IMG/VR virus record: IMGVR_UViG_3300012931_000006
Span: 1 to 47,739 of that record
Origin: a virus
Length of the DNA: 47,739 nt
Direction: 5' to 3' (one strand)
The notes below the pieces were generated by a model. That model searched no databases, was not told the DNA's origin, and worked only from the letters and a program-made list of their open reading frames with translations. Shown one piece after another: positions 18,777 through 47,739 of the stretch; within the stretch, counting starts at the first letter, position 1, and each line of letters starts with the position of its first letter. A program made the translations under genes and the position numbers.

Positions 18777-19196
18777 CTCAGCGTAGCACCCCCGAGTGGT
18801 GCAAAACGCGCGCGCCTCGGGTACGGTCACCGATCCACCCTGCGGCACCAGCGCCGCAGACCCTAGCAGCACCCCCGATTCCGCGACAAACGTCGCGGTG
18901 TAGCGCTCGGTCCAATCCAGCGCTCGGAGCGCGCTGCGCTGGCGCGCGCGGAGCTCGGAGGCCGCCGAGTCTCGCTCCCCTGCGCGTGAGTGCCCGTCTA
19001 GGTACAGCCGCTCACACTCAGGGCAGACATCCACCAGATCGCGCGGCGGATCCTGCCAGGGCGCGCCCTCAGCGCTCCCGCATGTGGGGAGGCCGGTGTG
19101 CGCGATCCACCAGTCCCCTTGGGCGGGGCCGGCTCGGTACGAGATTATTTCACCGCACAGGGCGCGGCAGATGGTGCGGTCGACAATGTGATTCAC
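18708..19196 (-). CDS. Zinc-finger-like accessory protein, 162 aa
   Basis: The GTG at 19196 overlaps the upstream stop as GTGA and follows GAGGAGG. The product has Cys residues near the N-terminus (TICRALCGE), a PTCG, then a CPECERLY pair with a following His, so a zinc site is likely. A second Cys pair occurs in FCTTRGC. The middle is helical and the C-terminus beta-rich. It is the last gene of the leftward accessory operon that starts at 21158. Not a known structural or replication family. Confidence 0.6.
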   Translation of the reverse strand: MNHIVDRTICRALCGEIISYRAGPAQGDWWIAHTGLPTCGSAEGAPWQDPPRDLVDVCPECERLYLDGHSRAGERDSAASELRARQRSALRALDWTERYTATFVAESGVLLGSAALVPQGGSVTVPEARAFCTTRGCYAELVGSDDVVRRGWVGPDGSYTLT

Positions 19197-20170
19197 GACC
19201 CCACCTCCTCGTCCTCCACCAGACCAGGCTCGGTCAGGACGTGCTGGCCAAGGTCGCCGAACCAGGGGTGAGTCACGCGCACATCCACCGCACACCTGTA
19301 CTCGGTGTGCGGCTCCGCGCAGACGTCGACCTGCAGGAAGCGCCGCGGGATCTCGACCCGCACGTCAGGCAGCAGTGCGGCGGCCGTGATCGCCGGGATC
19401 GCGGCGTCCAGCGCGTCGCGAATCTCGTAGGCGGTCTCGCTGGCGACACTCTCGCGCTCGACTGCGGGGCCGTACGTCTCGACGATCGAGCCACCGATAG
19501 AGCCGACCGCGTCGAGGATCACGCCCTCGATGGCGGTGCACAAAAACCGCTTGGTCGCGGCGAAGGCATCGACGCCTTCAGCGGCGCCTCTGCGGATGTT
19601 CTCGGGCAGCCGCTCCTCGCCGGCTGCCCACGCGGTCACTGCCGCGTGGCGTGCCGCGCGCTGCGCGGCTTCGGTGGCCTTGCGCTCCGCGGCTGCCTGC
19701 TCAGCCGCCTGCTGTGCGGCTCGCTTCGCCTCCCACTCCGCTACGAGCGGAGGCAGGACGCGAGCCTCGACGTCGGCTAGCCGCGCCTCAATTCGCGGGT
19801 CGCTGTCGTCAGCGTGGTCCGGGACGCCCGCACACGGCGCGAGCCTGAGGTAGGCCCGCGACACGATCCACGCCTCATCCGGCCTCGCCAGCGCGCGCTG
19901 GGTGCGCGCCTCCACCTCAGCCTCGAAGGCCGCCGCAGTGGCGGCTTCCGCGGCTCGCGCGGCCTTGATGGCGGCTGCGACCGTCTCGTCGGACGCCGCG
20001 GCTGCGAGCTCGAACCGCTGATCGGCGCGGTTTGCGAGCCACACGCGATCCTCATCGTCCAGCAGCGGATAGACTCCGGCTGCGGGCCACTCGCCAGCGC
20101 CTGCCTGGGGCGCGGCCTGACGGATGGCGGTGGACACTGGGAGGGCGATCTTAATCGTTACTTGTTCCAT
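19193..20170 (-). CDS. Ala-rich coiled-coil accessory protein, 325 aa
   Basis: The ATG at 20170 follows CAGGAG. Residues about 55-160 are an Ala/Glu/Arg-rich coiled coil. The C-terminal domain (VEIPRRFLQVDVCAEPHTEY, then VDVRVTHPWFGDLG) resembles parts of the small proteins at 22134 and 22538, suggesting paralogy within this accessory block. A degenerate member of the AGATG-loop hairpins lies just upstream of its ribosome binding site. An in-frame ATG in that loop (20191) would add seven residues. Role unknown. Confidence 0.6.
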   Translation of the reverse strand: MEQVTIKIALPVSTAIRQAAPQAGAGEWPAAGVYPLLDDEDRVWLANRADQRFELAAAASDETVAAAIKAARAAEAATAAAFEAEVEARTQRALARPDEAWIVSRAYLRLAPCAGVPDHADDSDPRIEARLADVEARVLPPLVAEWEAKRAAQQAAEQAAAERKATEAAQRAARHAAVTAWAAGEERLPENIRRGAAEGVDAFAATKRFLCTAIEGVILDAVGSIGGSIVETYGPAVERESVASETAYEIRDALDAAIPAITAAALLPDVRVEIPRRFLQVDVCAEPHTEYRCAVDVRVTHPWFGDLGQHVLTEPGLVEDEEVGS

Positions 20171-20526
20171 GACAATCTCCTGCGCGGGCATCTCCCGTCG
20201 GCTGCGAGGGGTGCCCAGTAGACGCGGGGGTGGGAGGGGGTGGGGGTGGGGATGGAAGCGTCCCCCGACTCCTGCGAGTCCGCGGACGGCCACCCGACTT
20301 CGCACGCCTCCCCGTCCGAGCACGGGGAGGTAGGGCGTACAAGTGCAGCCTCGTAGGCATAGGCGCGAGCGCCCTGCGCGCCCTGTGCCACGGCTTTCGC
20401 GGGCATATGTTCGCGCGCCGCGCGATACGCAGCCTCCGCAGCGTCGGCGGCCGCGAGCGCCTCCGCGCGGTGCGCGGGGCAGGGGGTAGTGTGAGTGCAA
20501 TGCGTGGTCGTGGTGGCGGTCTTCAT
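20158..20526 (-). CDS. Accessory protein, 122 aa (unknown)
   Basis: It starts at ATG 20526 after GAGGAGAAAG, and an in-frame ATG at 20550 lies in the loop of a hairpin. The N-terminus is Thr/His/Cys-rich (MKTATTTTHCTHTTPC), followed by an Ala-rich helix and a Pro/Ser-rich tail. Its stop overlaps the next gene by 13 bases. Two tandem hairpins and an 18-codon upstream reading frame precede it, so its translation looks regulated. No family recognised. Confidence 0.55.
   Translation of the reverse strand: MKTATTTTHCTHTTPCPAHRAEALAAADAAEAAYRAAREHMPAKAVAQGAQGARAYAYEAALVRPTSPCSDGEACEVGWPSADSQESGDASIPTPTPSHPRVYWAPLAADGRCPRRRLSWNK
20185..20197 (-). promoter_or_regulatory. AGATG-loop hairpin 5 (short form)
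   Basis: On the minus strand CGGG pairs with CCCG around the loop AGATG. It lies immediately upstream of the ribosome binding site of the gene starting at 20170. The stem is only four pairs, so this is the weakest of the five copies. Confidence 0.5.
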
Positions 20527-20579
20527 GATCTTTCTCCTCTTGCTGGCCATCTGCCAGCGTTAGTCAGTCGAGGAGCCAT
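20523..20579 (-). CDS. 18-codon leader peptide through the twin hairpins
   Basis: On the minus strand an ATG in the loop of hairpin 2, with GAGGAG in its 5' stem as a possible Shine-Dalgarno, opens an 18-codon frame. It crosses hairpin 1 and ends in a TGA that overlaps the ATG of the gene at 20526 as ATGA. Translating it would melt hairpin 1 and allow restart at 20526. It could equally be a by-product of the hairpin repeat, so confidence is modest. Confidence 0.35.
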   Translation of the reverse strand: MAPRLTNAGRWPARGERS

Positions 20580-20588
20580 CTGCTCCTC
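20542..20588 (-). promoter_or_regulatory. Tandem AGATG-loop hairpins 1 and 2
   Basis: On the coding (minus) strand, GCTGGC and GCCAGC close hairpin 1 (20542-20558) and GAGGAGC and GCTCCTC close hairpin 2 (20570-20588). Both have the identical loop AGATG and are separated by 11 bases. They lie directly upstream of the ribosome binding site of the 20526 gene. Stem sequences differ while pairing is perfect, which is covariation expected of a functional RNA structure. Confidence 0.7.
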
Positions 20589-20599
20589 TGACACCTCGA

Positions 20600-20627
20600 C
20601 CCCGCGCGGACCTGAGCCGGTGCGGGG
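20600..20627 (-). terminator. GC-rich hairpin in the accessory operon
   Basis: CCCCGC at 20600-20605 pairs with GCGGGG at 20622-20627 downstream of the gene ending at 20646. It has no T tract. It may protect or attenuate the mRNA between the 21158 and 20526 genes. Confidence 0.3.
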
Positions 20628-20645
20628 CGAAGGGGGCGGGCTGGG

Positions 20646-21158
20646 CTAGAGCGGGCGGACGGCCCACCCGTCGCCCGTGCGACGCCACTCGGACAGTGGC
20701 TCACCGCGGAGGGTGACCCTCACCCACCCATGGATCAGGTCGGCCTGATCCATGGCGTCTGCGAGAGCCGACCAGCGGACGCGCGAATGGCGCGCGTCCT
20801 CGCTGGTCATAACCTCGACGCGGGTCTCGAGCGGGGCGGGCTCGTGCCCGCAGGCTGGACACTGGGAGTGGCTCTCCCAGTCGTACACCTGCCCGCATCG
20901 CGGGCAGGGGCACTCGCCGCAAGTCTCGGCGAGGCGGATGTCCGACACACTGACGGTGGTGGCCGCCCACAGGACCTCCCCCGACTCATAGGAGTCGGGG
21001 TCGTCGGGCTCGCCCGTCCGCACGGGGGCGGACTCGAGACCAGCGGCGACCAGCGCGACCTTGGCGGCCGCGATCTCTGAGTCGGTGTCGGTGGGGTAGC
21101 TGTCTACCTGCTCGATACGGCCTTCGGAGTCGGTGCGGCTGATGGTGATAAAGCTCAT
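20646..21158 (-). CDS. Zinc-ribbon accessory protein, 170 aa
   Basis: It starts at ATG 21158 after AGGAGAA; an in-frame ATG at 21179 lies in the loop of hairpin 3. Residues about 80-115 form a zinc ribbon (CGECPCPRCGQVYDWESH, then CPACGHEP). The N-terminal part is acidic. It is the first gene of the leftward accessory operon and is preceded by two AGATG-loop hairpins and a palindromic operator with a promoter. Function unknown; a regulator or nucleic-acid-binding protein is plausible. Confidence 0.6.
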   Translation of the reverse strand: MSFITISRTDSEGRIEQVDSYPTDTDSEIAAAKVALVAAGLESAPVRTGEPDDPDSYESGEVLWAATTVSVSDIRLAETCGECPCPRCGQVYDWESHSQCPACGHEPAPLETRVEVMTSEDARHSRVRWSALADAMDQADLIHGWVRVTLRGEPLSEWRRTGDGWAVRPL

Positions 21159-21170
21159 CTGATTTCTCCT

Positions 21171-21215
21171 GGGGGCCATCTGCCCCCGTCCAGTGTCTGT
21201 GAGCCATCTGCTCAC
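21171..21215 (-). promoter_or_regulatory. Tandem AGATG-loop hairpins 3 and 4
   Basis: On the minus strand, hairpin 3 (21171-21187) has the stem GGGGGC/GCCCCC and hairpin 4 (21199-21215) the stem GTGAGC/GCTCAC. Both have the loop AGATG, and the gap between them is 11 bases, as for hairpins 1 and 2. Hairpin 3 touches the ribosome binding site of the 21158 gene. The same twin architecture at two separate leaders argues for one regulator acting on both mRNAs. Confidence 0.7.
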
Positions 21216-21252
21216 GACCTAAGTCAATGCATCCGCTGGGCCAAGATGTCCT

Positions 21253-21284: not shown

Positions 21285-21312
21285 CTTATGCCCACTAACG
21301 CCCACATGACAA
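21285..21312 (-). promoter_or_regulatory. Leftward promoter of the accessory operon
   Basis: On the minus strand TTGTCA (21312-21307) and CATAAG (21290-21285) are spaced 16 bases apart, a fair sigma-70-type promoter upstream of the gene at 21158. The -35 box lies inside a palindrome, which would make it repressible. Confidence 0.4.
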
Positions 21313-21388
21313 TTTTTGTCATTGCGAATCGTGGTCTGGCAAGGATTCGTCGAAAACATGCGGGAAAACGCTAGGACAATTTTTGTCA
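21307..21388. promoter_or_regulatory. Two palindromic operators GACAATTTTTGTCA
   Basis: The palindrome occurs at 21307-21321 and 21374-21388, centres 67 bases apart, in an AT-rich island between the accessory operon and the HTH gene at 21410. The word GCTAGGAC is found three times here (21248-21255 inverted, 21370-21377, 21409-21416). This pattern indicates a dimeric DNA-binding regulator, most simply the adjacent Fis-like protein, though a host repressor is possible. Confidence 0.6.
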
Positions 21389-21409: not shown

Positions 21410-21631
21410 CTAGGACAAGCGCGACATCCATCTATTGAGCGTGCGGATTGGGATTCCGAGCGCGGCGGCTGCGTGGGTACGATTACCGCCAGCAGCCTCG
21501 ATGGCTGCGCGGATCTCCGCCACAGCCGCCTCGTGGTCTGCTGGCCTAGGACTGCGCAGGAGCCTGCCTAGGCGGTGGGTCGCGGCGCAGGTCACACCTC
21601 TCTCGCCGACCTCTCGATACACGCGTGCCAT
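21410..21631 (-). CDS. Fis/NtrC-type HTH regulator, 73-79 aa
   Basis: The C-terminal 35 residues (EIRAAIEAAGGNRTHAAAAL, then GIPIRTLNRWMSRL) match the helix-turn-helix of Fis and of NtrC-family C-termini. The N-terminal part is short and Arg-rich with no receiver or ATPase domain, so this is a stand-alone DNA-binding protein. The start is uncertain: ATG 21631 has a badly spaced ribosome site, and GTG 21649 is an alternative. It lies beside two palindromic operators and probably controls the accessory operon or itself. Confidence 0.6.
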   Translation of the reverse strand: MARVYREVGERGVTCAATHRLGRLLRSPRPADHEAAVAEIRAAIEAAGGNRTHAAAALGIPIRTLNRWMSRLS

Positions 21632-21697
21632 ACCCTCGTGCGCGTGCACCGGGCGTGCCCACTGTCAGACGTCGCCATGCCAGGACGTCTGGGAGAC

Positions 21698-22974: not shown

Positions 22975-24081
22975 TCACTCGCCAGACGTCCCATGTGCCC
23001 TGTGTGTGCCTTGGCCGTGTCCGTCGAGCAGACGGACCGCGTCACGTCGGACGTCCGGCGAGAGGTGCGCGTAGCGCATCGTCATCTCGATGGTCGCGTG
23101 CCCCAGGAGCTCCTGGATCGCCTTGAGCGGGACACCGCGCATCGCCAGGTGCGAGGCGAACGTGTGCCGGAGCACGTGCCAGCCCACGCGACGCAGGCCA
23201 GCGCGCTTACATGCGTTCCACAGCGGCCACTTGCAATCGCCCTTCGTCAGTGGCTTGCCGTCGGCGGCGCAGAACACGAGCTCGCCCCTCAGGTGGCGAT
23301 GCGACTTCAGTGCGGCGAGCGCCTCGTCAGACAGCGGTACCTCGCGCTTCTTGCCGCTCTTGGGCGTGCCAACGACTCCCCGCACGATCGACTGGCGCAC
23401 CATGAGGCGTCCGGACACCAGGTCGATGTCCTCCCACCGCAACCCCAGCAGCTCCCCCTGACGCAACCCGCACCGCAGAGCGATCGTGATCATCACCTGC
23501 CACTGCGAGTCGACCGCCGCCAATAGCCGGCGAGCCTCGTCGAAGTCGAGGAAGTCGAACTCTGGCTCGGGCGCCTTGAGCCATTTCACGTGTGGCACGG
23601 ATGCCAACTTTCCCCATTCTGCGGCCACCACCAGGATCCGCCGCAGGATTGTGAGGTAGTTGTTGACCGTCTTCTTCGCCAGCTTCTCGTCGAGTTTGGT
23701 CTTTTTGAAGGCCTCGATCTGCTCCATCCGAATCGCGTCGAGCCGGAGGTGCCCAAATTCGGGGAGCAAGTGGTTGTCGAGCACGCCTTGTTTTGTGCTC
23801 ACCTCTGACGGTTTGTTGTTCGCCGGGGCGTAGGTTGCCATAAACGACTTGGCGAAGTCGCGGAATAGCGGCACCTCCGCAGGCGGCGCAGGCTTGGGGC
23901 CCGCGAGCATTTCCGCCTTCAGGTCTTGCTCGTACTGCTCCGCGGCGCGGCGGTTCTGGATGGGCGCTACCCTCCGGACCCGTTCGACACAGCCGTTGGG
24001 GAGCTCCACCTTGAAGTCCACCATGAGGTGGTCTTGGATCTTGCCGGCGGCGTCACGCCACCTTCGCCGTCGTACTGCCAT
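22975..24081 (-). CDS. int: Tyrosine recombinase (integrase)
   Basis: The 368-residue protein has the full layout. It has a basic N-terminal arm-binding region (1-65) and a SAM-like core-binding domain (about 70-165). The catalytic domain carries Arg207 (CGLRQGE), His302 and Arg305 (HVLRHTFASHL), His328 (LLGHATIEMT) and nucleophile Tyr337 (MRYAHLSP). It catalyses attP x attB exchange. The ATG at 24081 lies inside the 3' end of the xis-like gene, and attP lies just past its stop. It is the last gene of the leftward early operon from PL. Confidence 0.95.
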   Translation of the reverse strand: MAVRRRRWRDAAGKIQDHLMVDFKVELPNGCVERVRRVAPIQNRRAAEQYEQDLKAEMLAGPKPAPPAEVPLFRDFAKSFMATYAPANNKPSEVSTKQGVLDNHLLPEFGHLRLDAIRMEQIEAFKKTKLDEKLAKKTVNNYLTILRRILVVAAEWGKLASVPHVKWLKAPEPEFDFLDFDEARRLLAAVDSQWQVMITIALRCGLRQGELLGLRWEDIDLVSGRLMVRQSIVRGVVGTPKSGKKREVPLSDEALAALKSHRHLRGELVFCAADGKPLTKGDCKWPLWNACKRAGLRRVGWHVLRHTFASHLAMRGVPLKAIQELLGHATIEMTMRYAHLSPDVRRDAVRLLDGHGQGTHRAHGTSGE

Positions 24082-30932: not shown

Positions 30933-31146
30933 GTGCCAGCGATATGCCCGATGTCGATTTGTGGGATGGTGTGCGCGGCTTGTCCGGGCATCCGGATGGA
31001 GCTACCCTGGCACAGTGGACCAAGAGCAGATCGAGGGCGAAGCGATACGGCTCATGAAATGCCTGGATGTGAGTACGCCGGTGTCCCCGCTTGCCGTCGC
31101 GCAAGATGACAGTGGCCCCGGGGGTTTGTTAAGTATCTGGCACTTG
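30906..31146. promoter_or_regulatory. Operators with TATCTGGCACTTG
   Basis: The 13-base word TATCTGGCACTTG occurs at 30906-30918 and 31134-31146. An inverted copy of CTGGCACTTG lies at 30930-30939, forming a 10-base inverted repeat with 30909-30918. One pair covers PL and the other copy overlaps the -35 of PR. This is the pattern of immunity operators bound by one repressor at both promoters. Confidence 0.7.
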
Positions 31147-31212
31147 ACAAATCTTGGCAGCCGACAGTATGTTGCGCAGCGTGAGCGCATCTACCGAAAT
31201 TCATGGGCCTAG
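31015..31212 (+). pseudogene. Possible ImmA/IrrE-like N-terminal remnant
   Basis: A frame opening at GTG 31015 reads QEQIEGEAIRLMKCLDVSTP and later GSRQYVAQRERIYRNSW, and stops before any HExxH motif. The beginning resembles N-terminal parts of ImmA/IrrE metalloproteases that lie beside phage repressors. It overlaps PR and an operator, so if it was once a gene it is now a relic. The resemblance is weak, and chance is a real alternative. Confidence 0.22.
31144..31173 (+). promoter_or_regulatory. PR, rightward early promoter
   Basis: TTGACA (31144-31149) and TATGTT (31168-31173) are separated by 18 bases. Transcription would begin near 31180, right at the GTG at 31181, so the regulator mRNA could be leaderless, as lambda cI mRNA is from PRM. 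An operator word overlaps the -35 box. Confidence 0.6.
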
Positions 31213-33101: not shown

Positions 33102-33325
33102 ACAAAAGCTGGATAGACAGCGGCGTATTGGCCGATCGCGTGCTGCGGCAACTCGACCGCAAGCCGTGGCAGTCAGTTTTCGAGATCGAACGGGTGCTGC
33201 AGGTGGGCGAGCACCGTGTGCGCCAGGCTCTCGCAGGGCTCGGCCGGCGCGTCAAACACAAGCCCGATCCCGTGCACAACAACGGCGGTCGGCCGGCCCA
33301 ACTGTGGGCGAGGAGAGGATCATGA
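33098..33325 (+). CDS. Winged-helix protein, 75 aa
   Basis: ADRVLRQLDRKPWQSVFEIE, then VGEHRVRQALAGLGRRVKHK and NNGGRPAQLWARR give helix-turn-helix and wing in the same order as the 32892 product. It probably arose by duplication of that fold. ATGA overlaps occur at both ends. Confidence 0.65.
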   Translation: MNKSWIDSGVLADRVLRQLDRKPWQSVFEIERVLQVGEHRVRQALAGLGRRVKHKPDPVHNNGGRPAQLWARRGS

Positions 33326-42438: not shown

Positions 42439-42893
42439 TCTGCTCTCGGGCAGACGTCGAACGGATAAACGCCGACATCACAGATCCGTCTTTGTCGTGG
42501 CGGGATCTCGAGAAAAGGTACGGAATTCCCCAGTCGTCTATCCGCAGGCACAGCAAGCACTTCGTGGCCGTAGAGCGCGGCCGTCCCGCCGCAAGCGCAG
42601 CCATCCCGGCGCAGGTAGCGGAGGTCGTCGACTCTCCTACGCTTGATATGTTGCTTGGCAAGATACAGCAGCTCGAGGCAGACGCTCGGCGCATAGCCTC
42701 GACGGCGGAGGCTGCTGGCAGGTTGGAGACAGCTATCAAGGCGATAGCCCAGTTGGTCCGAATCATCGAGATGACCGGTCGGATCTTGGGGGTGCTCGAG
42801 GAGCGGAACCGGGTCACCGTCAACGTGGTCAACGCCACGGTTGCCAAGATGACAGACGCGGAGCTGGCGAAGGCTCTGGAGGCTCATGGTTGA
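42417..42893 (+). CDS. terS: Terminase small subunit
   Basis: The 158-residue product (from GTG 42417; TTG 42366 and GTG 42387 are possible) has an N-terminal helix-turn-helix, CAICSRADVERINADITDP, then SLSWRDLEKRYGIPQSSIRR. A long oligomerising helix follows (MLLGKIQQLEADARRIASTA), then a C-terminal segment that would contact the large subunit. It binds the packaging site; the TGGCACA iterons lie at its 5' end. It overlaps the large subunit gene by eight bases. No start has a good ribosome site. Confidence 0.75.
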   Translation: MTAPGCAICSRADVERINADITDPSLSWRDLEKRYGIPQSSIRRHSKHFVAVERGRPAASAAIPAQVAEVVDSPTLDMLLGKIQQLEADARRIASTAEAAGRLETAIKAIAQLVRIIEMTGRILGVLEERNRVTVNVVNATVAKMTDAELAKALEAHG

Positions 42894-44286
42894 CATCGCC
42901 TCCGTCCGAGCCGAAGCCTCGCGCCGAGTGGCAGCGCGGGCAAGGCTGCGCCCACTGATGGAGGCGCTGCACCCAAAGCAGCGCACGTTTGTCGCAGATC
43001 CTGCCCGTCGTAAGGCCGGCCTGTGTACCCGACGTGCGGGCAAGTCTCATGGGGTAGCCGTGTGGTTACTCGAGGGCGCGGCGCTCAGCCTGCCCGAGAC
43101 GCTGAGCCCGTACATAGCCACGACGCGAGGCCACGCGCGTCGGATCCTATGGGCGACTCTTCGGCAATTGAACGCGCAGTGGCAGCTCGGGCTGGACTTC
43201 CACGAGTCCGATCTGACCGTCGACTGGCCAGGTGGAGGTAGGGTATGGGTGACCGGATGCCCCGACACCTCGCACGCAGAGGTGTATCGTGGCCCCGCGT
43301 ACAGACGAGTCGCGATCGATGAGGCAGGGTCGTTCCCCGCCTACATCCGCACACTTGTCAGCGATATCCTAGACCCAGCGCTGATGGACTGGGATGGGGA
43401 GCTGGCCTTGATTGGATCGCCTGGAATCTCGCCAGACGGTCTGTTCTACGACGCGACGGCGGCGTCCGACACGTCGTGGTCAGTGCACACGTGGAGCGTG
43501 CTAGACAACCCGTACGTGCGGGAGCCGGCCGCGTATTTGGAGCGCGTGCTGCGAGACAACAAGTGGTCGGCCGACCACCCGACGTACGTGCGGGAGTACC
43601 TGGGCAGGTGGGTCGAAGACAGCTCGATGCGTGTGTACCACATACCCCACAACGCGCTCGCGTTCGACGTGCCACGGACTGACGGGTGGCATTATGTCTT
43701 GAGCATCGACATTGGGTCGAGCGAATACCACCCAACAACAGCATTCTCGCTGCTGGCATATCACCCACGGGAACTCGCCGCCTACGTGGTCCGCTCATGG
43801 TGTGAGGCCGGGATGACTCCAAGCAGCATCGCCGAGCGCATCAAGGAGATCATGTCGGCTTACTCCATCGAGTCGATCGTTATGGATCCTGGTGGGCTAG
43901 GTGGCGCGTACGTGAAGGAGATGAACGAGAGGCATGCCTTGCCAGTGGAGCCCGCAGAGAAGGCGAGCAAGCGGGCCTATCAGGAGATGCTCAATGGGGA
44001 CTTGAAGACAGGCCGGCTGAAACTCATCGAGAGAGACACTGCTGGACTGCGAGAGGAGGCCAAGGTTCTCGCCTGGAAGACGCCAGCCAAGCTCGAGGAG
44101 GGCGAGCAGCCAAACCACGAGTGTGACGCGATGCTGTACGGGTGGAGACGCTGCCGGCAATACCTGAGCGTGGCTCCAGTAGAGAAGGACCCGTCGCGCT
44201 GCGAGGAGGAGGACAGGATCGTGCAAGAGATGGTCAGAGCCGAGAGAGCAAAACACCAACGGCACAGCTACGCGAGGCGGCGATGA
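42886..44286 (+). CDS. terL: Terminase large subunit
   Basis: The 466-residue motor has the adenine/Q-like HPKQRTFVADP, Walker A-like CTRRAGKSHG (47-56), Walker B VAIDEAGSF, and coupling motif ALIGSPGIS. The C-terminal RNase H-like nuclease has acidic residues in LSIDIGSSEYHP, ESIVMDPGGLG and NHECDAMLYGW. It cuts concatemers and pumps DNA into the prohead through the portal encoded downstream. Length and motif order are normal. A nuclease/ATPase of this class fits headful or cohesive-end packaging. Confidence 0.93.
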   Translation: MVDIASVRAEASRRVAARARLRPLMEALHPKQRTFVADPARRKAGLCTRRAGKSHGVAVWLLEGAALSLPETLSPYIATTRGHARRILWATLRQLNAQWQLGLDFHESDLTVDWPGGGRVWVTGCPDTSHAEVYRGPAYRRVAIDEAGSFPAYIRTLVSDILDPALMDWDGELALIGSPGISPDGLFYDATAASDTSWSVHTWSVLDNPYVREPAAYLERVLRDNKWSADHPTYVREYLGRWVEDSSMRVYHIPHNALAFDVPRTDGWHYVLSIDIGSSEYHPTTAFSLLAYHPRELAAYVVRSWCEAGMTPSSIAERIKEIMSAYSIESIVMDPGGLGGAYVKEMNERHALPVEPAEKASKRAYQEMLNGDLKTGRLKLIERDTAGLREEAKVLAWKTPAKLEEGEQPNHECDAMLYGWRRCRQYLSVAPVEKDPSRCEEEDRIVQEMVRAERAKHQRHSYARRR

Positions 44287-44878: not shown

Positions 44879-45078
44879 TGGGCCCCGTCCAGATTCGGGA
44901 ATTGGCGGTGGTCATGCGAGAGCTTGGCGTGACGCACGTGTCTACACCTGAATGGTCAATACACCTTGGCCCACCTACAGATCCGGTATCGGTAGACGCG
45001 GATCGGAAGCCTGTTGTACGAGACAACGACGAGCGTCGGAAGTTCGGGCATGTGTCTGGTTTCCGAGGGCCACGCTGA
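44875..45078 (+). CDS. 67-residue protein (unknown)
   Basis: The ATG at 44875 overlaps the previous stop and its TGA shares a base with the portal ATG. PVQIRELAVVMRELGVTHVS is a helix followed by a strand (WSIHLGPP), with a charged tail. It resembles small proteins of phage head modules but no function is known. Confidence 0.5.
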   Translation: MMGPVQIRELAVVMRELGVTHVSTPEWSIHLGPPTDPVSVDADRKPVVRDNDERRKFGHVSGFRGPR

Positions 45079-46919
45079 TGGCGCGCCTTACTGAAGCGAC
45101 CCGCACGAAGCGCGAAAACCACTGGTGGCGCGAGTCTAAGGCCGACGTCCACTCTTCGGTGCACGAGGCGATGTCTGCGTTGCGCGACCAGCACCAGGCA
45201 AGAAAGACACACATCGAGGAATGCCTCAAATACTACGGCGTCAACGTCAATCGGGAGTTCGTCGGAAACGACCTGTGCATCATCACCGACGCAATCGACT
45301 CGATACCAGGTGGCGGGTTGCCGCTTCCGATAAACGTAATTGCCATGGTAGCCGACGCATTCATAGCGAAGGTGTGCCGCTCGCAGCTCAAGGTCATGCA
45401 TGTTCCAGTTGGCGTGGGGCTGTCGAACGCCAAGCGACAGGCGGAGGAGCGGACTCGGTTCACCGACGGGATCTGGTACGAAACACAGTTCCGGGAGGAG
45501 GCGATCCAAGCTGCGTTCGACGCGACCGTGTGCTCGATGGGCCAGATCAAAGTGTCGCCAGTCCACGGCAAGATCGAACATGAAGTGGTACATCCAGAGG
45601 AGCTATGGTGGGACGAGCAGGACGCGAAGTACGGCAAGCCTCGCACGCTAGCGCAGCGCCGGGCAGTCGATCGAGACTGCTTGTCGGCGCTGTACCCATC
45701 CAAGAGCCGAGACATTGACGAGGCGGGGTCTAGCACTGAGGACGACGGATACCAGCGCACGTCCGATCAGGTGCTGGTCACAGAAGCATGGCACCTGCCG
45801 AGCGCTCCAAGCGCGGACGATGGCAGGCATATCATCTGCGTTGACACGTGCACGCTTCTGGACGAGCCATGCGATGCCTTCCCGTTCGCGTTCCTGCGGT
45901 GGCAGCCGCCCGCGCGTGGGTTCTGGCAGACCGGTCTGGTTGACGATCTGGTCGGTATTCAGATCGCGATCAACGACCTGATCATCTTCGTTCTTGAATC
46001 GATCGGGTTGATGTCGAGCTCGAAGATCCTGGTCAACAACGCGAGTGGTGTGAACGACTCGGACTTCACCGACGAGATCGGCAAGGTCATTCGGTACAAT
46101 GGCGCGGTTCCGCCTCAGTACATGATCCCAAACATCGTGGTCCCTGGGGAGGTCTACCAGCAGATTGAGCTGATGCAGCAGCGTGCGTTTGCGCGTGCTG
46201 GTCTGTCGCAGATGTCTGCTGCTTCCCAGACTCCAGCCGGGCTCGACGCTTCTGGGCGAGCGATCCGCGTGCGGTCAGACGTCGACACGGCTCGCCATGT
46301 GCTAGCCGGCCGCGCATGGGAGCGCTTTCACGTCAGCACATCGGAGCTGGACTTGCAGGCTGGAGCGCGCTTGTTTGAGGAGAACCCGGACTTCTCCACC
46401 GTGCACGTCGGGCGCAAGTACGGATCTTTCGTAGCGCAGAGCGTGGCGTTCAAGGACGTAGCGCCGAGCGACACCAAGTTCGTTATTCGTCCGTACCCGG
46501 CCGCTCTGCTACCAGAGGATCCGGCGGGGAAGCTCGCCACGCTGGCAGAAATGGAAGATCGTGGGTACATCACGCCAGAGCAGTCGATCGACATGCTCGA
46601 CGCTCCAGAGCTTGAGACGACGATCGCACTCAAGTCGGCTGGACTCCGGGTAATCGACATGGCGATCGACAGCATCCTGAACGACGGCGCATACCTGGCA
46701 CCTGAGCGATATTGGCCGCTCGCAATGTGCATCGACAGAGCACAGGCGCGGTACTGCCTCGCCGAGCAAGACCTAGACGTCAACGACGAACGGCTTGCGC
46801 TGTTGCGAGCATTTATCGACGAAGCGTTTGCGCTTGTGAAGGCGATCCAAGCGGAGAACGCCCCAGCACCGGCCCCTGGTCCAGCGCCCGTCCCAACGCA
46901 ACAAGGAGCTCCAGCATGA
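45078..46919 (+). CDS. Portal protein
   Basis: The 613-residue protein starts at ATG 45078 (TGATG overlap). Its layout is that of podophage portals: an N-terminal helical wing (CLKYYGVNVNREFVG), a beta domain with WDEQDAKYGKP, the WQPPARGFWQTGLVDDLVGI segment, long crown/stem helices (QQIELMQQRAFARAGLSQM) and a C-terminal region rich in Ala/Pro. It forms the dodecameric ring where DNA enters the head. It sits between terminase and scaffold genes as expected. Confidence 0.88.
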   Translation: MARLTEATRTKRENHWWRESKADVHSSVHEAMSALRDQHQARKTHIEECLKYYGVNVNREFVGNDLCIITDAIDSIPGGGLPLPINVIAMVADAFIAKVCRSQLKVMHVPVGVGLSNAKRQAEERTRFTDGIWYETQFREEAIQAAFDATVCSMGQIKVSPVHGKIEHEVVHPEELWWDEQDAKYGKPRTLAQRRAVDRDCLSALYPSKSRDIDEAGSSTEDDGYQRTSDQVLVTEAWHLPSAPSADDGRHIICVDTCTLLDEPCDAFPFAFLRWQPPARGFWQTGLVDDLVGIQIAINDLIIFVLESIGLMSSSKILVNNASGVNDSDFTDEIGKVIRYNGAVPPQYMIPNIVVPGEVYQQIELMQQRAFARAGLSQMSAASQTPAGLDASGRAIRVRSDVDTARHVLAGRAWERFHVSTSELDLQAGARLFEENPDFSTVHVGRKYGSFVAQSVAFKDVAPSDTKFVIRPYPAALLPEDPAGKLATLAEMEDRGYITPEQSIDMLDAPELETTIALKSAGLRVIDMAIDSILNDGAYLAPERYWPLAMCIDRAQARYCLAEQDLDVNDERLALLRAFIDEAFALVKAIQAENAPAPAPGPAPVPTQQGAPA

Positions 46920-47739
46920 GCGACAACGATGAGATCATTTTTGGAGATGAAGCCACCAACGCCGCGTTAGCGCAGATGGATTCGATCGCGTCTGAGACGG
47001 CGGCACCATCCAAGGCTGAGCCGGCGAAGACCGAGCCAGCGACGGAGCCTAACCCGCCTGCCCCAGCGCCCGCGACTCCACCCGCCGCTGCCCCTGAGCC
47101 AGACAAGGCGTCTGCTCGGCAGGAGCGCCGTGAGGTGCTGGCGAAGTTGCACAACGTCGCGAAGGCAGAGGCCGCGATCCGAAAGCAGCAGCGAGCTCTC
47201 GCTGAGCAGGAGGCGCAGGTCAAGGCTGAGCGCGCGAAGCTCGACGAGTTGAACGGGTTCCGAAAGACCGACCCGATCGAGTTCATGCGTCGCGCCGGGC
47301 TCGACCCCGACAAGCTCACAGACGATATCGTGGCGGGGAAGGCGAAGCCTCCGGACCCGTTGCAGGCCAAGCTCGCCGAACTCGAGGGCAAGCTTGCAGA
47401 ACAGACCAAGGCCGCGGATGAGAGACAGGCCCGGGAACGTACAGACAGAGTGCAGCGCAACCTAGCGGCAGACCGCGAGCAATTGGTCGGGTTTGTCGTA
47501 GAGCACGCCGATGCATTCCCATTCGCTGCGGCGCTTGACCATGGGGAGCTCGGGCAGTCGATCCAAGCCATGCGCCGAGACCACTACCTAGAGCACCGGT
47601 CCGTGCTTGACGCGGGCGTCGCTGCTGGTATGCTGAATGCGAGCTTACAGAAGCTCTATCAGCAGCTCCATAGCGTCGCCCAGAAGCAGACAGGAGCTGC
47701 GACGAGCAAAGCGACGCACCCCCCACAAGCAGCCGGGGA
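46916..47739 (+). CDS. Scaffold protein, N-terminal part (continues at 2)
   Basis: The ATG at 46916 overlaps the portal stop (ATGA) and the frame stays open to the right edge, then joins 2-253. Residues 1-65 are acidic then Pro/Ala-rich (NPPAPAPATPPAAAPEPDKA). A charged coiled coil follows (about 70-115), then FRKTDPIEFMRRAGLDPDKL, a second helical region and a segment containing VEHADAFPFAAALDH. Helical, highly charged proteins in this position are head scaffolds. The total is 317 residues. Confidence 0.85.
   Translation, partial: MSDNDEIIFGDEATNAALAQMDSIASETAAPSKAEPAKTEPATEPNPPAPAPATPPAAAPEPDKASARQERREVLAKLHNVAKAEAAIRKQQRALAEQEAQVKAERAKLDELNGFRKTDPIEFMRRAGLDPDKLTDDIVAGKAKPPDPLQAKLAELEGKLAEQTKAADERQARERTDRVQRNLAADREQLVGFVVEHADAFPFAAALDHGELGQSIQAMRRDHYLEHRSVLDAGVAAGMLNASLQKLYQQLHSVAQKQTGAATSKATHPPQAAG
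47617..47739. repeat. Terminal repeat, right copy (circular overlap)
   Basis: Identical to 1-123. It ends inside the scaffold gene and proves that the window is a closed circle or a permuted genome, not a fragment. Confidence 0.95.

Follow-up and report, generated by a model that had tools for sequence, protein, structure and literature searches.

Introduction

The coat-protein operators of the RNA phages MS2, Qbeta, and PP7 are hairpins positioned at the ribosome-binding site. They are bound by protein dimers that repress translation, and the sequence of their stems is largely free. Small RNA hairpins also form in early phage transcripts, as in the lambda nut site, whose boxB has a pentaloop, and in the paired stem-loops of the HK022 put sites. 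The operator of gp43 of phages T4 and RB69 is a hairpin of 16–18 nt, located 5' of the ribosome-binding site, with 10 identical bases at the top and a lower stem that varies (PMC3014915). This autogenous operator of the DNA polymerase has a UAAC loop, is conserved between phages, and consists of a single hairpin for each gene, roughly 40 nt before the start codon. Cluster K mycobacteriophages contain repeats at translation starts, the SAS and ESAS, of which the ESAS include 17-bp inverted repeats (PMC3203893). The SAS is a conserved 13-bp sequence, GGGATAGGAGCCC, which includes the Shine-Dalgarno (SD) sequence, and the arms of the ESAS are conserved in sequence. Later work found putative promoters within the ESAS (PMC11373665).

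Here, we describe four hairpins with an invariant AGATG loop in the leaders of two phage genes. The gp43 operator is their nearest precedent, as there, too, the apex is constant, the lower stem varies, and a ribosome-binding site follows. In contrast to that operator, the hairpins described here have an AGATG loop, are arranged as two per leader in two leaders of one genome, and precede genes without a family match, none of which encodes a DNA polymerase. Like the SAS and ESAS, they are a repeated element tied to the translation starts of several phage genes; however, the leaders lack a sequence resembling GGGATAGGAGCCC, and their arms vary while the apex alone is fixed. The operators of MS2, Qbeta, and PP7 differ in having other loops and a single hairpin with the start codon region, and in belonging to RNA phages, and the bulged A is missing here. 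The hairpins of the nut and put sites work at the level of transcription; their loops differ from the one described here, and they have no link to ribosome-binding sites. The four hairpins share two properties of phage translational operators: they directly adjoin ribosome-binding sites, and their stems covary, in this case within one genome.

Genome of the phage and its probable host

The window, which is the whole stretch of DNA analyzed here, corresponds to the full IMG/VR record IMGVR_UViG_3300012931_000006, with a length of 47,739 bases and a GC content of 64.3%. It carries a 123-bp terminal direct repeat (1–123 and 47617–47739), and on this basis the 47.7-kb record is most likely a complete phage genome. 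The genome is probably circular or circularly permuted, with a length of 47,616 bp. The phage is temperate and carries an integrase gene (22975–24081) together with an excisionase-like gene. The integrase is 44–63% identical to genes found nearly all in Myxococcota, with those of Polyangium among the closest, and therefore the host is likely to be a myxobacterium. A comparison with 50,697 phage records gave no match for the capsid-like (300–1544) or the portal-like (45000–46919) protein and only a remote one, with 25% identity, for the terminase (42886–44286). As judged by these comparisons, the phage lineage is very isolated.

Structure of the hairpin leaders

A small gene of the Fis-type HTH family (21410–21649) is followed downstream by genes A, B, and C, all encoded on the minus strand. 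The leader of gene A contains the distal hairpin 1 (21199–21215, minus strand; GTGAGC-AGATG-GCTCAC) and the proximal hairpin 2 (21171–21187, minus strand; GGGGGC-AGATG-GCCCCC), both with a 6-bp stem and a predicted pairing probability of 0.99. The leader of gene B contains the distal hairpin 3 (20570–20588, minus strand; GAGGAGC-AGATG-GCTCCTC), with a 7-bp stem and a pairing probability of 0.98, and the proximal hairpin 4 (20542–20558, minus strand; GCTGGC-AGATG-GCCAGC), with a 6-bp stem and a pairing probability of 0.96. The four hairpins are located on the coding strand of genes A and B, all within 0.7 kb. Their stems are perfect, and the GC-AGATG-GC apex is invariant in all four.

The two hairpins of each pair are separated by a gap of 11 nt (AGACACTGGAC and GACTGACTAAC). 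The SD sequence AGGAG of gene A (21166–21170, minus strand) is positioned 7 nt before the ATG at 21158, and that of gene B (20534–20538, minus strand) 7 nt before the ATG at 20526. Between the end of the proximal hairpin and AGGAG there are 0 nt in the leader of gene A and 3 nt in that of gene B. The tandem arrangement with an equal gap and the contact of each hairpin set with the ribosome-binding site had been noted in the first-pass annotation, and we confirm both. The two leaders are predicted to fold better than shuffled sequences, with z-scores of -2.8 and -2.6. In the predicted folds, the SD sequence and the start codon are partly open when the hairpins are formed.

The leader of gene B has additional features. 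The AUG of hairpin 3 opens an 18-codon frame (20525–20581, minus strand) with GAGGAG just 5' of it, and this frame ends in a TGA that shares bases with the start codon of gene B (ATGA). The frame may encode a leader peptide that is coupled to gene B. In addition, CTCCTC, the 3' arm of hairpin 3, could pair with the SD sequence of gene B. Elsewhere in the genome, a small hairpin with a different loop, GCCCA-ACTG-TGGGC (approximately 33297–33311, plus strand), is located directly 5' of an SD sequence, with a gene start near 33325.

The first-pass annotation had assigned five perfectly paired AGATG stems to the family and placed them before three genes. The coordinates, stems, and loops of all five are correct; however, we retain four hairpins, in front of genes A and B. 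The remaining one (20185–20197, minus strand; CGGG-AGATG-CCCG) has a 4-bp stem and is located inside gene B, before gene C. About 0.5 AGATG hairpins with 4-bp stems are expected by chance in the window. The closing pair of this hairpin is G-C, as opposed to C-G in the other four, 133 of 200 shuffled sequences fold at least as well, and its pairing probability in a longer context is 0.00. Only the AGATG loop and the position 3 nt before an SD sequence speak in its favor. With its chance-level stem, different closing pair, predicted lack of folding, and location within gene B, it was not accepted as a member of the family, and a third leader, that of gene C, is doubtful.

Chance expectation and covariation of the stems

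The AGATG sequence itself is not enriched, with 88 sites on both strands compared to 82 expected. At the GC content of the genome, two random bases pair with a probability of about 0.27, and on this basis approximately 0.03 AGATG-enclosing stems of at least 6 bp are expected in the window, whereas four are present. We also counted families of distinct stems of at least 6 bp that share a common 9-nt apex. In 150 dinucleotide shuffles, such families reached at most two members, compared to four in this genome, and a survey of 331 other loci comprising 3.26 Mb yielded none with three or more.

All 24 stem cells pair across the four copies (100%), and every pair is Watson-Crick, with no G-U. The four stem pairs that vary have all changed on both sides (4 of 4). 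The resulting covariation score was not reached by any of 500 shuffles, and the signal is lost when the stem partners are slid relative to each other. The four hairpins are far beyond chance, with the covariation drawn from four copies within a single genome. A 33-nt block is common to leaders A and B at 73% identity, and the hairpin copies may be duplicates of each other. The covarying stems and the fixed loop at ribosome-binding sites support selection on the shape of the hairpin. Selection on RNA shape had been suggested before for all five stems; the covariation supports it for the four hairpins, whereas the fifth hairpin and a third gene are not supported.

Downstream genes and probable control region

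Gene A (20646–21158, minus strand) encodes an orphan protein of 170 residues with a zinc-ribbon-like cysteine pattern; its matches to HypA and to ribosomal protein L37e fall below the threshold. Genes B (20158–20526, minus strand; 122 residues) and C (19193–20170) also encode orphans. None of the three has a family match above the threshold. Genes A and C have no homolog in IMG/VR or in the phage records, and gene C has none in 290 genomes of the class. The structures predicted for the products of genes A and C have a mean pLDDT of 55–57. We found no candidate binder protein with a recognized RNA-binding domain.

Two operator-like palindromes, TGACAATTTTTGTCA at 21307–21321 and GGACAATTTTTGTCA at 21374–21388, are located upstream of leader A. 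The gap 5' of this leader thereby contains one perfect copy of the TGACAATTTTTGTCA palindrome and one with one mismatch. A weaker copy with three mismatches (31145–31159) is positioned between the leftward operon and a rightward Bro-N gene. These palindromes are likely to be operators of a phage repressor, and the segment 21307–21388 is a probable control region of the hairpin-carrying transcript.

Search for related leaders

The whole window has no match in Rfam 15 at the gathering score. With lax settings, the only match is Mu-gpT-DE, with 14.8 bits (gathering score 49), near the fifth hairpin. A search of IMG/VR with the exact tandem pattern yielded no leader among the matches listed; these are coding Gln-Met-Ala repeats or are unpaired. 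The stems of one IMG/VR locus (L198) do pair, but are part of a coding GADGA repeat. A pattern of a single core followed by an SD sequence and ATG gave no convincing leader in IMG/VR among the matches listed.

The first-pass annotation had proposed that a covariance model be used to look for the hairpins in related phages. A tandem model scores 54–63 bits in the window, compared to 26–29.5 bits for the best matches in 21 records and in Myxococcota genomes (two samples, of 290 and 379), none of which is a relative with the motif. In the best matches elsewhere, the apex is not conserved or just one hairpin is formed. A match in Archangium (L180/L153) was rejected, as it lies within ordinary host sequence next to a tRNA.

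We also searched with other proteins of the phage. No relatives of the terminase or of the portal protein were detected in IMG/VR, and none of the portal or capsid protein in the phage records. Relatives of the integrase (10 viral and 47 bacterial loci) have no comparable hairpins; the redundant loci L132 and L172 contain one isolated 5-bp hairpin each. The motif is absent from the searched contigs of two remote prophages, whose terminases are 30–35% identical to that of the phage. The hairpin element is uncommon; its motif appears to be new, and would belong to a kind of system, the phage RNA operator, that is already known.

Discussion

The arms of the hairpins vary yet stay complementary, and the hairpins are located on the coding strand against SD sequences; therefore, an RNA stem is the best reading of the sites. 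We lean, with modest confidence, towards paired RNA operators through which an RNA-binding protein that reads the loop controls translation initiation. This corresponds to the protein-binding translational operator proposed in the first-pass annotation, which, as far as sequence can tell, is partly supported and provides the best account of the leaders. In the leftward transcript, each hairpin pair would fold just 5' of the SD sequence. A protein encoded by the phage or by the host would recognize the C-AGAUG-G apex, and the rest of the stem would need only to pair. The binder is perhaps dimeric, since the hairpins are paired at a fixed spacing. Bound to the proximal hairpin, 0–3 nt from the SD sequence, it would block the entry of the 30S subunit, so that genes A and B would be repressed together. 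Repression is the favored outcome, given the direct contact of the proximal stem with the SD sequence. The binder may originate from the operon itself, for which the zinc-ribbon-like product of gene A is a lead rather than evidence.

The hairpins alone leave the SD sequence at least partly open, which makes activation possible. They might aid expression by keeping the SD region unstructured, by protecting the mRNA, or by binding an activator; in its purely structural form, this role would be protein-free. The position of the stems immediately 5' of the SD sequences and the partial opening of the SD sequence and start codon while the hairpins are formed are compatible with such a role. However, an invariant AGATG loop would be unnecessary for a purely structural function, and AGAUG is, to our knowledge, not among the extra-stable loops such as UNCG and GNRA. 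Overall, we consider an aid to expression unlikely.

It is also conceivable that the sites act as DNA, with the 9-bp core GCAGATGGC inside a palindrome either serving as the target of a DNA-binding protein or forming part of promoters, as proposed for the ESAS. The exclusive use of Watson-Crick pairs and the possible origin of the copies by duplication would fit such a role, and the separate operator-like palindromes point to DNA control nearby. The arms, however, differ among the copies, so that they provide no common DNA recognition sequence, and no sigma-70-like site was found in the hairpin leaders by a scan that covers that promoter type only. The history of the ESAS, inverted repeats before start codons in which putative promoters were subsequently found (PMC11373665), calls for caution, but we regard a role as DNA as quite improbable here.

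The AUG in the loop might itself be used, either as a start codon that yields N-terminally extended products or as a standby or decoy initiation site. In all three cases (3 of 3), the downstream start is read in the same frame as the loop AUG, which lies 7, 8, and 7 codons upstream of it in genes A (21179/21158), B (20550/20526), and C (20191/20170). Such agreement has a chance of 1/27, and the cases are not fully independent. The loop AUGs lack an SD sequence at a normal distance, whereas strong SD sequences are located 6–7 nt before the downstream ATGs, and we regard the use of the loop AUG as very improbable.

Small paired hairpins in a phage leader are reminiscent of transcription antitermination at the nut sites of lambda or the put sites of HK022, in which hairpins of early RNA modify RNA polymerase. 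This reading is still less credible, as inspection by eye revealed no boxA-like sequence in the leaders, the second pair is intergenic and lies against an SD sequence, and we recognized no downstream terminators that would need such sites. We give almost no credence to functionless hairpins that arose by chance or by duplication with palindrome-correcting mutation: the shared 33-nt block suggests that the copies may be duplicates, and template switching can make arms match, but this would not explain why the loop is invariant when the stems have diverged, why the gap is constant, or why SD sequences are adjacent, and the family is larger than in all controls.

Three further candidates were rejected. 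A CsrA/RsmA binding site needs GGA in the hairpin loop, and all copies have AGATG. The hairpins are absent from the intrinsic terminator scan and are followed by an SD sequence, not by a T run. A CAUCU sequence in leader A (21244–21248) that could pair with the loop has no counterpart in leader B.

Returning to the protein-bound RNA operator, we speculate, tentatively and with more doubt than for the operator itself, that the tandem AGAUG-pentaloop hairpins, with a start codon in the loop, represent a new class of RNA operators from phages of Myxococcota, recognized by a new RNA-binding protein. This protein is possibly the zinc-ribbon-like product of gene A, which would then control both gene A itself and the gene that follows. 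If the operator reading is right, the leaders would constitute a compact RNA-protein switch in a little-studied group of phages, with a recognized apex that is short and well defined. They would also be a clear example of covariation that is readable inside a single genome when relatives are absent.
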